Shown here piece after piece: positions 9,929-61,732 of a stretch of 64,000 nucleotides of DNA (position 1 is the first letter of the stretch; every line of letters begins with the position of its first letter). The position numbers were made by a program, and so were the translations under genes. The stretch lies in NCBI RefSeq assembly GCF_022479115.1, contig NZ_CP092497.1, forward strand, positions 9,052,001 through 9,116,000, given 5' to 3'. Origin of the DNA: Amycolatopsis sp. EV170708-02-1 (lineage in GTDB: Bacteria > Actinomycetota > Actinomycetes > Mycobacteriales > Pseudonocardiaceae). The notes below the pieces were generated by a model. It was given only the letters and a program-made list of their open reading frames with translations. It ran no database searches and was not told the DNA's origin.

Positions 9929-11179
9929 GTGGGCCGCGTCGAACGGTTTGACAGACGGCTCGAGAACCTCGTGGGCAATACCTTCGCGCGCATGTTCGGT
10001 GGCAACGTCGTCACGCAGGAAGTGGCGGTGGCGCTTGAGCGCGAGAGCGAGGAGAACGTTCGTGAGCTGGCCGGTGGTCGACAGCTCGCTCCCAATCACT
10101 ACATCGTGTCGTTGGGGCAGGCTGATCACGAACGTATGGCCGGAGACGAGCGTCGGGTCACCTCGGTGCTGGCGGAGGCGGTCAAGGAACACCTCGCCGA
10201 GCACGGATGGGACACCTATGGTGACGTCGTAGTTTCGCTCGAGCGCAACGAGGCGCTGCATACTGGACAGTTCAAGACCCGTTCGTCCGTCGATCCCGAC
10301 GTCAAGCCCCACGGCGCCGAAGGTTCGTCACGGTCGGCACGACCCAGCAACGCAGGAGACCCAGCAATGAGCCAGCCCCCCGGCTACGGCCAATACGACC
10401 AGGGTGACCCGTACGGCCAGCAGGGCCAGTACGGCTACGGACAGCAGGCTGGCCAGCAGCAGCCCGGGTACGACCAGGGTTATGGCGGCCAGCAGCAGGG
10501 CGGCTACGACCAGGGTTACGGCGGCGGCGCACAGCAGCCCGGTTACGACCAGTACGGCGGCCAGCAGCAAGGCGGCTACGACCAGGGCTATGGCGGCGCG
10601 CAGCAGCCTGGATACGACCAGTACGGCGGCCAGCAGCAGGGCGGCTACGACCAGGGTTACGGCGGCGGCGCACAGCAGCCCGGCTATGACCAGTACGGCG
10701 GCCAGCAGCAAGGCGGCTACGACCAAGGTTATGGCGGCGGCGCACAGCAGCCGGGTTACGACCAGTACGGCGGCCAGCAGCAGGGCGGCTACGACCAGTA
10801 CGGCGGCGGCCAGCAGCAGTACGGCCAGCCCGCCGCGGATCCGTACGCGCAGGGTGGCGGCTACGGCGGCCAGCCGGCGGCGGGCCGTGCGCTCACCGCG
10901 AGCCTCCAGCTGGACGACGGCTCGAACCGCTCGTACTCGCTCAAGCAGGGCGGGAACGTCGTGGGCCGCGGCCAGGACGCCGACTTCCGGCTCCCGGACA
11001 CCGGTGTCTCCCGCCGTCACCTGGAGATCACCTGGGACGGCCAGAGCGCGACGCTCGCGGACATCGGTTCGACGAACGGCACCACCGTCAACGGCACCCC
11101 GGTGCAGACGTGGCAGCTGGCCGACGGCGATGTGATCCGCGTGGGCCACTCGTCTCTCGTGTTCCGTACGCAGGGCTGA
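9929..11179 (+). CDS. fhaA: FHA-domain protein FhaA
   Basis: A 416-residue cytosolic adaptor. The GTG start has a GAGGAGG ribosome site. Residues about 1-125 form the FhaA N-terminal (DUF3662) domain, beginning [22 protein letters not shown]. Then comes a long linker of Gln, Gly, Tyr and Asp repeats (about 150-310). The C-terminal FHA domain (about 315-416) has the phosphothreonine-binding motifs [22 protein letters not shown] and STNGTTVNG. In mycobacteria FhaA binds phosphorylated partners such as the MviN pseudokinase domain and slows peptidoglycan synthesis. It opens the operon that contains its kinases PknA and PknB. A 10-base palindrome, CACACGTGTG, lies at 9905-9914. Confidence 0.95.
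10499..10783 (+). repeat. Four 69-72-bp tandem repeats inside fhaA
   Basis: Units start at 10499, 10571, 10640 and 10712. Each encodes 23-24 residues of the form [20 protein letters not shown] plus GQQQ. Degenerate copies flank them. The second unit lacks one Gly codon. Silent differences between copies show they are not all recent duplicates. Confidence 0.9.
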
Positions 11180-34383: not shown

Positions 34384-34971
34384 ATGCCTCGATCCTCGGC
34401 GCGGAACCAGCGCTCCGACGCACAGCGCAGCAGGGCTTCGATCCTGGACGCGGCGCTCCAGACCCTCGGCGCGGATCCCGACGCGGGCGTCGAAGCCATC
34501 GCCACCACCGCGGGCGTGACCCGGCAGACGGTCTACGCCCATTTCCCTTCACGAGGGGAACTTCTGGCCGCGGTACTCGACCGCATCACCGAAGAGGCTG
34601 TCGCCGCGATGGACGCCGCGGACCTCGACGAGGGCCCGGCCGCCGAGGCACTGGTGCGGTTGATCGAGGCCGGACGTCGCACGTCCGGGCGATACCCCGC
34701 CCTGCTCCGGAAGATCACTTCCCTGCCGGTGAGCCCGGAGGCCGACCAGCGGCGCCATTCACCGGTCGCCGAGCGGCTCGAGCGCGTCATCCGGCGGGGC
34801 AAGGCGACGGGCGAGTTCGATGATCGGCTGCCGACGGGCTGGCTGGTGGCGGTCACCGTGAAACTCGGTCACGCGTCCGGCGAAGAGGTCGACTCCGGCC
34901 GGATGTCCGAGGGCGAAGCGGCGGACGCGCTGCGCACGAGCCTGCTCCGAGTGCTCGGCGCGACACCGTGA
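34384..34971 (+). CDS. TetR-family transcriptional repressor
   Basis: A 195-residue repressor. Helix-turn-helix (about 12-60): RASILDAALQTLGADPDAGV then IATTAGVTRQTVYAHFPSRGELLAAVLD, a typical TetR recognition helix. The rest is a helical ligand domain (LVRLIEAGRRTSGRYPALLRK). The ligand is unknown. It is divergent from the SnoaL-like/copper-chaperone pair and preceded by two matching operators, so it most likely controls that pair and itself. Confidence 0.92.
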   Translation: MPRSSARNQRSDAQRSRASILDAALQTLGADPDAGVEAIATTAGVTRQTVYAHFPSRGELLAAVLDRITEEAVAAMDAADLDEGPAAEALVRLIEAGRRTSGRYPALLRKITSLPVSPEADQRRHSPVAERLERVIRRGKATGEFDDRLPTGWLVAVTVKLGHASGEEVDSGRMSEGEAADALRTSLLRVLGATP

Positions 34972-57146: not shown

Positions 57147-58280
57147 TCAGCCCGGGAGGCGGACCGGCATCAGGAGGTACAGGTAGCCGGGGACGACGTT
57201 GCCCTCCTCGTCGGCGGGCTTGATCAGCGCCGGCCGGTTCGGGGTGGTGAACGTCAGTTCCGCCCGGTTCGCGTTCAGCGCGCCGAGCCCGTCGACGAGG
57301 TAACCCGGGTTGAACGCGATGGTCACCGGCTCGCCCTCGTAGTCGACCTGAAGCTCTTCTTCGGCCGAGCCCTCGTCGTCGCCGCCGGCGGAGAGCCGCA
57401 GCGAACCGTCGTTGAACTCCAGCCGCACCTGGGTGCCACGCTCGGCGACCAGCGAAACACGCTTGATGGACTCGGCGAGCGCGGAGACCTCGATGACCGC
57501 GCGCGACGTGTGCTGCGCCGGCAGCAGCTGCCGGTACGGCGGGAACTCCGCGTCGAGGAGGCGGGTCGTGGTGTAGCGACCGGAACCGGAGAGACCGAGG
57601 AGCCCTTCGCCGCTGGCGAGCGCGAGCCGGATCTTGGCACCGCTGGCGCCGAGCGTCTTCGCGGCCTCGGCGAGCGTGCGCGCCGGGACGAGCACCGCGG
57701 CGTCGGACAGGCCCTCGGCCGGCTCCCAGGTGAACTCGCGCATCGCGAGGCGGAAGCGGTCGGTGGCGACCAGGGTCAGCGAGGAGCCGGAGATCTCCAG
57801 CCGCATCCCGGTCAGCATCGGGAGGGTGTCGTCCTTGCCCGCGGCGACGACGACCTGGGTGACGGCCTGGCCGAACGCGTCACCGGTGAGTTCACCGGCG
57901 AAGGCGGGCTGGGACGGGAGCTGCGGGTAGTCCTCGACCGGCATGGTCGGCAAGGAGAAGCGCGCGGAACCGCAGGTGATGGTCGCGCGGGCGCCGTCGA
58001 CGGAGATCTCGACCGGCTGCGCGGGCAGTGACTTGGTGATGTCGGCCAGCAGACGGCCGGAGACCAGGAGGCGGCCGCCGTCGGCGATGGTGGCCGGGAC
58101 ACCGACCGTGGCGGAGACCTCGTAGTCGAATCCGGAGACGGTGAGGGCGTCACTCGTCCCGTCGGATCCCGCATCGAGCAGGACACCGCCCAGAACCGGG
58201 ACCGGAGGCCGCGACGGGAGGCTTCTCGCCACCCACGCGACGGCGTCGGCCAGCCCGTCACGCTCGACGCGGATCTTCAT
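57147..58280 (-). CDS. dnaN: DNA polymerase III beta subunit (sliding clamp)
   Basis: A 377-residue clamp with three similar domains: [37 protein letters not shown] opens the first; [27 protein letters not shown] the second; and the third ends [15 protein letters not shown], where the MP-x-R motif is the canonical clamp end. It holds polymerases on DNA and is the first gene beyond oriC on this side. Confidence 0.97.
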
Positions 58281-58530
58281 GCGCGCTTCCTTTCGACAGC
58301 CGAGCCCCTGACGGCTCGAAAGCTCAACGGGTCACCTCGGCCGGAGAGCGCGATGGCCAGGTGCCTCGCAGGTGTGTTCGGTCCGTGCGAGGACGCGAAC
58401 GCACGTCGACACGCAGACCAGGTGCAGGGACCCACGTTAGGCCGTCCCCGGGGTCCGCGTCACCTCGGCCTCCCCTTGCTTTTGTCGACAAGACGACACG
58501 GCTCACCGGCTGTCCCCAGATTCGTCCTTC

Positions 58531-59092
58531 GCCTGTTTTTGTTTTGTTCTCTTCTAGAGAAGAAGAAAAGACAGCAGTAGTAATAGGTGTTGTGGATTGT
58601 GTGGACAAGGCTCGTTCGCGCAGGTCCGGGCGCCTGGAGGGCTGTGGACTCCGGGTGTGTACGGACGGTGGACAGCTCGGGGCGTCCGTGGATGGATTCG
58701 GGCGGCGCTCGATCTGTCCACAGTCATCCACAGTTGTCCCCACGGTTATCCCCAGTCTCGCACCGGTTTGTACCCAGGGTTGTGGGCGCCGTTCGTGACC
58801 GGAATCGCTCGGGAGAGTGATCCATGCAGCCTGCATCACCCTTGTGCACAAGATGTGGGCAACCTGGGGACAGCATGTGGATCTTGGTGTGGAAATGCTG
58901 TGGATTGCCTGTGAGTGCGATGTGGACGGAAACCTCGTCGCCGCAGCTCTCCGACCCGGCGAAGTTGTGCACAAGCTACCCACAGCATGTGGATTCCTTT
59001 GTACACAAGGAAAAACGCGAAGCACCCCGAGAGCCGCTTCGCCTCCTTCGCCCGCTCCGCGGCCCACACCCGCTTCGGCCCTATGTGGACAC
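58531..59092. other. Chromosomal replication origin, oriC
   Basis: This lies in the 1215-base gap between dnaN and dnaA. It holds a perfect DnaA box TGTGGACAA at 58600-58608 and many boxes with one change: 58714-58722, 58724-58732, 58734-58742, 58746-58754, 58842-58850, 58965-58973, 58999-59007 and 59084-59092. More TGTGGA cores occur at 58591, 58876, 58900, 58921 and 58989. An AT-rich stretch at 58531-58590 near dnaN is the likely unwinding element. The rest, 59093-59316, holds a GGGCTC/GAGCCC hairpin at 59099-59124 and the dnaA terminator. No gene is seen in 58281-59495. Confidence 0.93.
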
Positions 59093-59251
59093 AAAGAAGG
59101 GCTCCCACCTACCGGCGAGAGCCCCGAAACCCTTGTCGGCCAAGGGATTGATGCTCAGACGACCCAGCGGTCTCCCGGAAGCGCGCCAGCGCGACGGGAG
59201 ACTTCACCGTCGAGCGCCCTCTTTCGGGCCGAAGGCCCACGAAAACGCGAT

Positions 59252-59304
59252 GAAGGGGCGCCCTCCGCTCTCAACCTGAGTTGGAAGCGGAACGACGCCC
59301 CTTC
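59252..59304 (-). terminator. Probable dnaA terminator
   Basis: GAAGGGGCG at 59252-59260 pairs with CGCCCCTTC at 59296-59304; inner CCGCT/AGCGG and CAAC/GTTG extend the stem. On the minus strand a T-containing sequence (GCGTTTTCG) follows. It lies past the 23-bp repeats, so these would be in the dnaA 3' UTR. Confidence 0.7.
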
Positions 59305-59316
59305 GGCGCGCTTTTC

Positions 59317-59493
59317 GTCAGCGCTCGACAGAGAACACAGTCAGCGCTCGACAGAGAACACAGTCAGCGCTCGACAGAGAACACAGTCAGCGCTCGACAG
59401 AGAACACAGTCAGCGCTCGACAGAGAACACAGTCAGCGCTCGACAGAGAACACAGTCAGCGCTCGACAGAGAACACAGTCAGCGCTCGACAGA
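59317..59493. repeat. Seven and a part 23-bp tandem repeats after dnaA
   Basis: Seven identical 23-base units start at 59317, 59340, 59363, 59386, 59409, 59432 and 59455; the unit starts GTCAGCGCTCGACAGAG and contains the palindrome AGCGCT. An eighth, partial copy of 16 bases ends at 59493, two bases before the dnaA stop codon. The units are not DnaA boxes. There are no spacers, so it is not a CRISPR array. Confidence 0.97.
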
Positions 59494-59495
59494 TA

Positions 59496-61130
59496 TCACT
59501 GCCTTGCGCGCTGCTTGATCCGTGAGGTGAGTTCCTGGACCTGGTCGTAGATGCGCCGTCGTTCGGCCATCTCCTTGCGGATCTTCTTGTCCGCGTGCAT
59601 GACGGTCGTGTGGTCGCGGCCGCCGAAGGTCTGCCCGATCTTCGGCAGCGACATGTCGGTCAGTTCGCGGCAGAGGTACATCGCGATCTGGCGCGCGGTC
59701 GCGAGCGCCTTCGTCTTGCCGGGGCCGCAGAGGTCGTCGAGGGTCACGTCGAAGAACTCCGATGTGACGCCCATGATGGTCGGCGCGGTGATCTCCGGTG
59801 CGTGCGAATCCGGGATGAGGTCCCGGAGCACGATCTCGGCGAGCGCGACGTCGACGGGCTGCTGGTTCAGCGACGCGAAGGCGGTGACGCGGATGAGCGC
59901 GCCTTCGAGTTCCCGGATGTTCGCCTCGACGCGCGAGGCGATGAACTCCAGGACCTCGCCGGGAACCGCGAGCCGGTCCTGCGCCGCCTTCTTGCGAAGG
60001 ATCGCGATACGGGTTTCGAGTTCCGGCGGCTGGATGTCGGTGATGAGACCCCACTCGAACCGCGTGCGCAGCCGGTCTTCCAGCGTTTCGAGGCGCTTCG
60101 GCGGGCGGTCGGAGGAGACGACGATCTGCTTGTTCGCGTTGTGGAGGGTGTTGAAGGTGTGGAAGAACTCTTCCTGCGTACCTTCCTTGCCTTCCAGGAA
60201 CTGGATGTCGTCGACGAGCAGGATGTCGATGTCGCGGTAGCGGCGCTGGAACGCGACCTTGCGGTCGTCCCGCAGCGAGTTGATGAAGTCGTTGGTGAAC
60301 TCTTCGGTCGACACGTACCGCACGCGCATCCCGGGGAACAGCCGCTGGGCGTAGTGCCCGACAGCGTGCAGCAGGTGGGTCTTCCCGAGCCCGGACTCCC
60401 CCCAGATGAACAGCGGGTTGTACGCGCGTGCCGGTGCTTCGGCGACGGCGACCGCGGCCGCGTGCGCGAAGCGGTTCGACGCACCGATGACGAAGGTGTC
60501 GAACGTGTACTTCTCGTTGAGCTTCGTCTTCGACGTCTGCGGCTGCGCCGGCGCGGTGTAGGGCTGGCCCGCGATCGGCTGACCGGAGAACGTCGGCCAG
60601 ATCTCGGTCACGGCGGCGAGGGCCTCGCCCTCTTCGTCGACTTCTTCATCGCTGTCATCGCCATCGTTGAGGCTGTTGTCCACCGGCTGCTGCCTCGGCG
60701 GCCTCGGCTTGGGGGGCTCGGGCCGGGGCCTGGTCGGGGACAGCATGCCGTCACCCTCGGGCAGCGGAGGAGTACCCGGCACCGGGCCGGACCCGTTTTC
60801 CACCCGGCTGGGTGACGTCGGTTCGTAGCGAGGGCCCGGCGACGGCGGAGGCATCGAAGTGTGGGGCTCGGTGCTGTCGACCTTCACCGCGAGCGAGACC
60901 GCGCGGCCGAGCCGGCGCGAAAGGGCTTCGGTGATCGCGCCGCGCAGGGCGCGTTCGATCGCTTCCTTGGCGAAGTCGCTGGGGGCGGCGAGCAGCGCGG
61001 TGCCGTCGAGCAGGCCGATCGGCCGGGTCACCCGCATCCAGGCGCGCTGCTGCGGGGAGAGGGTGCCATCGGACAGCTCGCGCACGACCTGCTCCCAGAT
61101 GACGCCAAGATTGTGCTGGTGATCGGACAC
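59496..61130 (-). CDS. dnaA: Chromosomal replication initiator protein DnaA
   Basis: A 544-residue initiator. GTG 61130 (start [14 protein letters not shown]) has GGGAGGGGAG before it. Domain I (1-85) is followed by a Pro-rich and acidic domain II (about 90-200). AAA+ domain III has Walker [20 protein letters not shown], Walker [13 protein letters not shown] and [24 protein letters not shown]-binding domain IV has the signature [22 protein letters not shown]. It opens oriC and regulates its own gene. It is longer than the roughly 507 residues of M. tuberculosis DnaA, mainly through domain II. Confidence 0.98.
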
Positions 61131-61732
61131 CTGCCTGACTCCCCTCCCCTCGTCGGTGCGCTGCGGCGAGATCACTCAGCGGCCCGAACGCCGGGTCGAG
61201 CGTCATCATGGCCCGGTCGGCTCATGCGCACAGCAAATATCCACATAGTTGTCCACAGCTGTGCACTAATGTACGGCGACCCGCGGTGACGCCACCTGCG
61301 GGATCGTCGTATGCCGACGGGACGCCTCCACATCCCCAAGGACACCCGGGCGCCTGCACCGTTCCACCTCGGCGAAAACCCGGGAGGGGCACGCTAACAA
61401 GCCCCGCTCGTTGCCACAAGGCGTCCTCGCGCGCAAGCATTTCACGGTGTACGGCGTGTTGCCATTCGATGCCCTCGCGTCGTCGGTGATCACTCTCCAC
61501 GTACGGTCGCGGTCCGTGGTCGAGGGGGTGCCTGCCGGGCCCGGGCGGTGGGTGCGTACCCTCGTAAGGTCTCCCGTATACAGCGGGGGCGTTTCGCGTG
61601 CCCACGTTGTCGTCGCTCGACGTGACGAGGCCACACGTTGGTAGGAGACACCAGAGACTGCCGTGCGTCAGCACGACACGCCCGGAACGGGTCGAACCGT
61701 TCCAGGCGGCCGAGAAACAGGAGAAGTTAGTC
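61131..61732. promoter_or_regulatory. dnaA-rpmH divergent promoter region with two DnaA boxes
   Basis: The 602-base gap has no gene. TTGTCCACA at 61249-61257 is a perfect DnaA box and ATATCCACA at 61237-61245 has one change; both are about 110-130 bases upstream of the dnaA start and fit self-control. On the plus side, TAAGGT near 61563 and TATACA near 61576 are weak -10 candidates for rpmH. A GAGAAG site lies before rpmH. No more can be said of the middle part. Confidence 0.6.

Follow-up and report, generated by a model that had tools for sequence, protein, structure and literature searches.

A tandem array of perfect 23-bp repeats that ends two bases from the stop codon of dnaA raises the question of whether it serves the replication origin, acts on the dnaA transcript, or has arisen without a role of its own. 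We examined this array in a 64-kb window of the Amycolatopsis sp. EV170708-02-1 genome (the window is the whole stretch of 64,000 nucleotides that was analyzed, and positions are given in its numbering) and compared it with 80 genomes of the genus and a family sample of 249 genomes. We consider it likely that slippage or unequal recombination has recently multiplied the 5′ 23 bp of a dispersed element found at gene 3′ ends, and that the resulting array probably has no dedicated origin function.

Structure and Position of the Array

TRF placed the array at 59317–59493 with a period of 23, 7.7 copies, a 100% match, and a score of 354. A direct check of the sequence gave seven identical copies of GTCAGCGCTCGACAGAGAACACA and one 16-bp partial copy, in agreement with the initial annotation, which had described seven perfect units and a partial one at the dnaA stop. 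Within the 64-kb window GTCAGCGCTCGACAGAGAACACA occurs seven times in the forward and not at all in the reverse orientation. The stop codon of dnaA (TCA on the plus strand, TGA in the gene) lies two bases beyond the array end, confirming the proposed placement in the dnaA 3′ region, and the AGCGCT palindrome reported for each unit is indeed part of all of them. The features of the locus are as follows.

59496–61175, minus strand: dnaA, 559 aa, TGA stop at 59496–59498, confirmed by Pfam
59317–59493, minus strand: tandem array, read 5′ to 3′ on the dnaA-mRNA strand as eight copies of TCTGTCGAGCGCTGAC (the P1 5′ strand, see below) and seven TGTGTTC spacers
57147–58280, minus strand: dnaN, confirmed by Pfam, with DnaA-box-like 9-mers at 58482–59084 between dnaN and dnaA

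DnaA boxes have the consensus TTGTCCACA. Every 9-mer of the array differs from it at more than three positions, which upholds the earlier statement that the units are not DnaA boxes and rules out a DnaA-box cluster. Between 58281 and 59495, the 9-mers with at most one mismatch fall at 58482–59084, the nearest of them ~225 bp from the array. A coding role for the array was rejected because 23 is not a multiple of 3. At gathering score, Rfam returned three tRNAs only for the 64-kb window, and between 59000 and 59600 it gave sub-threshold hits only, to BjrC68 (19 versus 39 bits) and the glycine riboswitch (16.9 versus 32 bits). An exact three-unit pattern, which is blind to diverged units such as those of a three-unit front in G045 (see below), matched 2 of the 80 genus genomes. 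The six matches in the own genome overlap and all lie inside the array, and the single match in the other (G019) has a 16-bp period and an unrelated sequence. Elsewhere in the window, a tandem repeat of ~72 bp at 10433–10825 would encode a Gly/Gln/Tyr-rich stretch in a putative frame.

The Repeated Unit Is the Front of a Dispersed Element

When the region was compared with the 80 genus genomes, many short matches outside dnaA were found that covered the hairpin adjoining the array together with about one unit, and a 206-bp piece had eight further dispersed places in the own genome (E < 1e-9). The array unit, made up of a leader and the strand that opens the first stem, is the 5′ end of an element that is dispersed and rich in hairpins, and it matches the element front in relatives. 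The element was described by a covariance model, R1, built from 19 aligned copies and comprising 164 positions. At dnaA it sits between the stop codon and a conserved terminator-like hairpin (59125–59098), and its parts are given here.

59170–59333, minus strand: element body, 175.4 bits with R1, with stems P1–P4; the last array unit is the P1 5′ strand
59239–59318, minus strand: P2, long stem-loop ACGAAAAGCGCGCCGAAGGGGCG.../...CGCCCCTTCATCGCGTTTTCGT, from folding, alignment structure, and covariation
59226–59238, minus strand: P3, small hairpin GGGCCTTCGGCCC, from the sequence by eye and the alignment
59209–59219, minus strand: P1 3′ strand GGGCGCTCGAC, sole partner of the repeated 5′ strand, from the sequence, P1 covariation, and folds with extra units
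59170–59202, minus strand: P4, hairpin GTCTCC...GGGAGAC, from alignment structure and covariation
59098–59125, minus strand: second terminator-like hairpin, found by eye and in the terminator scan; a similar hairpin is present in carriers without the element at dnaA
34913–35058, minus strand: second, weaker copy of the element (L045), 56.6 bits, immediately following a stop codon as judged by eye

The P3 hairpin is absent from the RNAalifold and model structure, in which its second half is paired otherwise. The initial annotation had placed a terminator near the end of the array; a hairpin does adjoin it, but this hairpin is part of the element, and a further terminator-like hairpin follows at 59125–59098. 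A scan for U-tailed terminators did not pick the element's own hairpins.

The predicted fold, including the P1 stem whose 5′ strand is repeated, is well supported by strong covariation. The alignment held 93 matches from 92 of 120 sources and was fitted to the model structure, with 94.7% of cells paired; 273 cells were changed on both sides, compared with a shuffle mean of 72.0 and at most 38 when partners were slid, counts that are inflated by related copies. The P1 pair 10–161 is CG in 59 of the 93 copies, AU in 28, UA in 1, and other in 5. Overall, wobble pairs outnumber A–C mismatches (253 versus 43), although 92 of the wobbles come from one constant pair, and after removal of this pair and the apical helices the two are nearly equal (34 versus 31). 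Because of this near equality, the action of the element as RNA of the sense strand is not proven. The 371-nt region that includes the element folds far better than shuffled sequence (z −7.01). In predicted folds with 0, 1, 2, 4, or 7 extra units, the P1 3′ strand was still paired with some unit (sum 0.97–1.01), the partner being the stop-proximal unit with none or one extra (0.97 and 0.91) and distal units with two, four, or seven. The modeled structure appears to tolerate the array, with some unit still closing P1.

Distribution and Stop-codon Anchoring

R1 matched 23 of the 80 genus genomes, 19 of which had 5–31 matches (hereafter carriers) and four 1–3, numbers in which antisense matches of this palindromic element are probably counted as well. 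In the family sample, 10 of 249 genomes and one of 46 genera gave R1 matches, none of them outside the genus, and the element is restricted to one group of Amycolatopsis. For the analysis of single copies, we used 114 sense matches above 100 bits from the 120 sources, the better-scoring part of the matches listed; L045, L046, L047, the match at window position 34913, L083–L086, and antisense matches were left out.

These copies are anchored to gene ends, as called by a simple GC-phase rule for ORFs under which single assignments may be wrong. A sense ORF ends on the 5′ side in 100 of the 114 copies, within −50 to +21 of the element start in 89 and within −3 to +5 in 49. In 19 copies the stop at +15/+16 is the element's own TGA, and many proteins with an element-supplied stop carry tails such as VAR or VER. 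Counted by distinct sampled sites, 34 of 49 have a sense stop at −50 to +21, and 11 have a TGA that comes from the element; the remaining 15 sites depart from this rule, two of them (L115/L154 and L149/L151/L165/L168) showing a near stop by eye. On the 3′ side of the element, antisense stops were found in 67 of the 114 copies, 30 of them within −50 to +21 and one within −3 to +5. UGA readthrough was set aside because the position of the stop relative to the element differs among sites.

Some copies elsewhere have a long front, CTGTGTTnnyTGTCGnGCGCTGACG, and the 23-bp unit corresponds to its first 23 bp. Of the 114 copies, 40 have a leader with a GTGT motif, whereas the majority consensus of all shows a T-rich leader only. 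Eight further copies of the 114, at seven non-dnaA sites, have two-unit fronts at up to one mismatch, and at up to two mismatches a second unit is present in 23 of the 114 copies compared with 36 of 570 control windows. In three of the eight copies (L121, L127, and L145, at two sites), the front is duplicated with a different, palindromic spacer such as ATCGCGCGCAGCGCGAT; these sites lie behind what we take to be an rpsT-like gene and another conserved gene. Among the matches listed for seven genomes (G000, G002, G014, G020, G050, G063, and G076), 32 of 65 non-dnaA places fall in the 12.5% of the half-chromosome that is closest to the origin, a count that omits two weak G000 copies (2013238 and 2781364), both distant from the origin.

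The dnaA Locus and a Second Site in Related Genomes

Of the 80 genus genomes, 30 were examined base by base at dnaA, and 11 of these have the element there and 19 do not. All 11 filled loci belong to the 19 carriers, the other 8 carriers being empty at dnaA. A GGGGCTC-type hairpin lies 3′ in both filled and empty sites, with some copies diverged (by eye). Counting front units by eye, diverged ones included, we found one at dnaA in six genomes (G015, G014, G074, G053, G013, and G002), two in three (G026, G063, and G076), three in G045, and eight in the own genome. Among these 11 genomes of different species, the array behaves as a variable-number tandem repeat with 1, 2, 3, or 8 units, as had been anticipated. 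An array conserved among relatives, by contrast, is not what we found; the empty carriers and the six single-unit alleles argue largely against a conserved origin function. The one-unit alleles have neither the CTGTGTT leader nor the TGTGTTC spacer. Filled and empty genomes are scattered on the dnaA tree, so that it does not tell gain, loss, and gene conversion apart; of its 19 inner branches, 7 have good support and 8 are open.

A second site lies at an Lsr2-like gene, as we presume it to be from its C-terminal sequence, and is filled in 8 of the 19 carriers (with internal deletions in G043 and G013) and empty in 11. Comparison of filled with empty sites at this locus and at dnaA gave, by eye, no evident shared target-site duplication, and the boundaries are not sharp. 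Most of the empty Lsr2-like sites have other hairpins in place (by eye). An inverted and direct repeat in the window at 2081–2171 (GAAAGCGTCCTTCACCGCGTC...) is like another dispersed hairpin family at the Lsr2-like site. Behind the Lsr2-like gene (L254–L272), closely related species differ, by eye, in which palindromic, terminator-like family they carry, which gives the impression that 3′-end modules are swapped.

Discussion

The expansion that we favor would have begun from CTGTGTTCTCTGTCGAGCGCTGA, the 5′-terminal 23 bp of the element, repeated by replication slippage or unequal recombination. The element has no evident coding role, usually stands in sense orientation behind the stop codons of genes, and is predicted to fold into a structure closed by P1 with the long, GC-rich P2 hairpin. 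Its place, orientation, and GC-rich stems make a role as a 3′-end module most likely, presumably as a terminator or a stabilizer of the mRNA 3′ end. Tandem copies that contain a palindrome and adjoin the base of a strong hairpin would be a classical substrate for slippage. The suggestion in the initial annotation that the array is a slippage product is plausible. The identity of the seven full units suggests recent growth. As one-unit alleles are without the TGTGTTC spacer, simple doubling of such an allele cannot start the expansion, and the ancestor most likely had two units already or gained the leader through recombination with another copy. We regard the array itself as most likely neutral.

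A competitor on the DNA level is the idea of iteron-like sites for a protein that would act on oriC, as raised in the initial annotation, or on dnaA expression. It has in its favor the perfect period, the AGCGCT in each unit, and the proximity of the DnaA-box-like 9-mers, and in a score-limited sample 12 of 26 distinct element sites (two neighboring L147 copies being taken as two) belong to the origin-proximal 12.5% of the half-chromosome. However, the repeated sequence is the front of an element that stands behind many unrelated genes, and an iteron or origin-regulator site is not supported; as far as conservation goes, the absence of the element from dnaA in the empty carriers and the six one-unit alleles also speak against a plasmid-type iteron array. 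Conserved genes cluster near the replication origin. The clustering of the element there could be explained by this and is therefore not evidence for an origin role. Judged from sequence, we regard an origin-regulator array as very improbable. An error of assembly, with a real copy number that is lower or higher, strikes us as equally remote: tandem repeats are prone to miscounting, but 177 bp would be short if the assembly is one of long reads, the genome is a single contig, and relatives have two and three units of the same kind.

On the RNA level, the array might tune the decay of dnaA mRNA or the release of ribosomes at the stop codon, in that extra units would move the P1 stem off the stop codon and add self-paired hairpins. 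The units are predicted to pair with one another (z −1.40 for 23 nt and −1.92 for 46 nt; −34.1 kcal/mol and z −2.59 for 83 nt), the modeled P1 partner shifts from stop-proximal to distal from two extra units on, and REPs less than 16 nt from the stop codon are described as reducing translation in Escherichia coli (PMC12306157). The number of units, however, is not conserved among relatives, and on these models a functional mRNA element is improbable, if less so than an origin site. We retain the expansion of an element front as the likely explanation of the array.

Among the papers listed in searches of the open-access (PMC) literature for this element or for repeats in Amycolatopsis, we found no description of the element, and it is best read as a REP- or MITE-like 3′-end element. 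REPs are described as 20–40 bp long, the termini of GTAG-type REPs as often providing the stop codon for flanking ORFs (PMC3733652), and some REPs as lying within 15 nt of stops (PMC12306157). Like the GTAG-type, RAYT-mobilized REPs and BIMEs, ours is a small dispersed palindrome that adjoins gene ends, as it does at the 34 of 49 sites, and that can supply the stop. It differs from them in that its model spans 164 positions, to which a leader is added, and contains several stems. Matches to the RAYT-type Y1 transposase (Y1_Tnp, PF01797) were found in 0 of the 80 genus genomes but in 5 of 14 control genomes, so this is not the usual REP/RAYT system, and mobilization of that kind was rejected. 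The MIRU-VNTRs of mycobacteria are likewise actinobacterial, apparently mobile, dispersed, tandemly variable, and located at translation signals (PMC12548453, PMC2734929). MIRUs, however, are described as repeats of 40–100 bp (PMC2734929) that carry an internal coupled ORF and insert at start codons (PMC12548453), whereas in our element the front 23 bp repeat and the anchor, at the same 34 sites, is the stop codon. Bacterial MITEs (ERIC, NEMIS, RUP, and others) are given as 70–300 bp, non-coding, gene-adjacent, and strongly structured, with possible effects on mRNA (PMC3733652). The element resembles them in size, gene-adjacent place, and strong secondary structure but shows, by eye, no inverted repeat at its extreme ends, the P1 3′ strand lying ~40 nt inside the 3′ end, and no clear target-site duplication at dnaA or the Lsr2-like gene.

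A bolder reading, which we hold to be unlikely though less so than the rivals above, would make the element a stop-codon-anchored folding module that provides both translation stop and transcript 3′ end and that spreads, preferentially near the origin, without a recognizable REP transposase; its tandem front would set the distance from stop to stem and so tune genes such as dnaA.

What had been suspected to be an origin-control array is replaced by a clade-specific element that rewrites the 3′ ends of genes, sometimes including the last codons and the stop, and the finding raises the question of what moves this element. The related species carry dnaA alleles with 0, 1, 2, 3, or 8 front units, and the effect of unit number on mRNA ends and DnaA level is thus directly testable.
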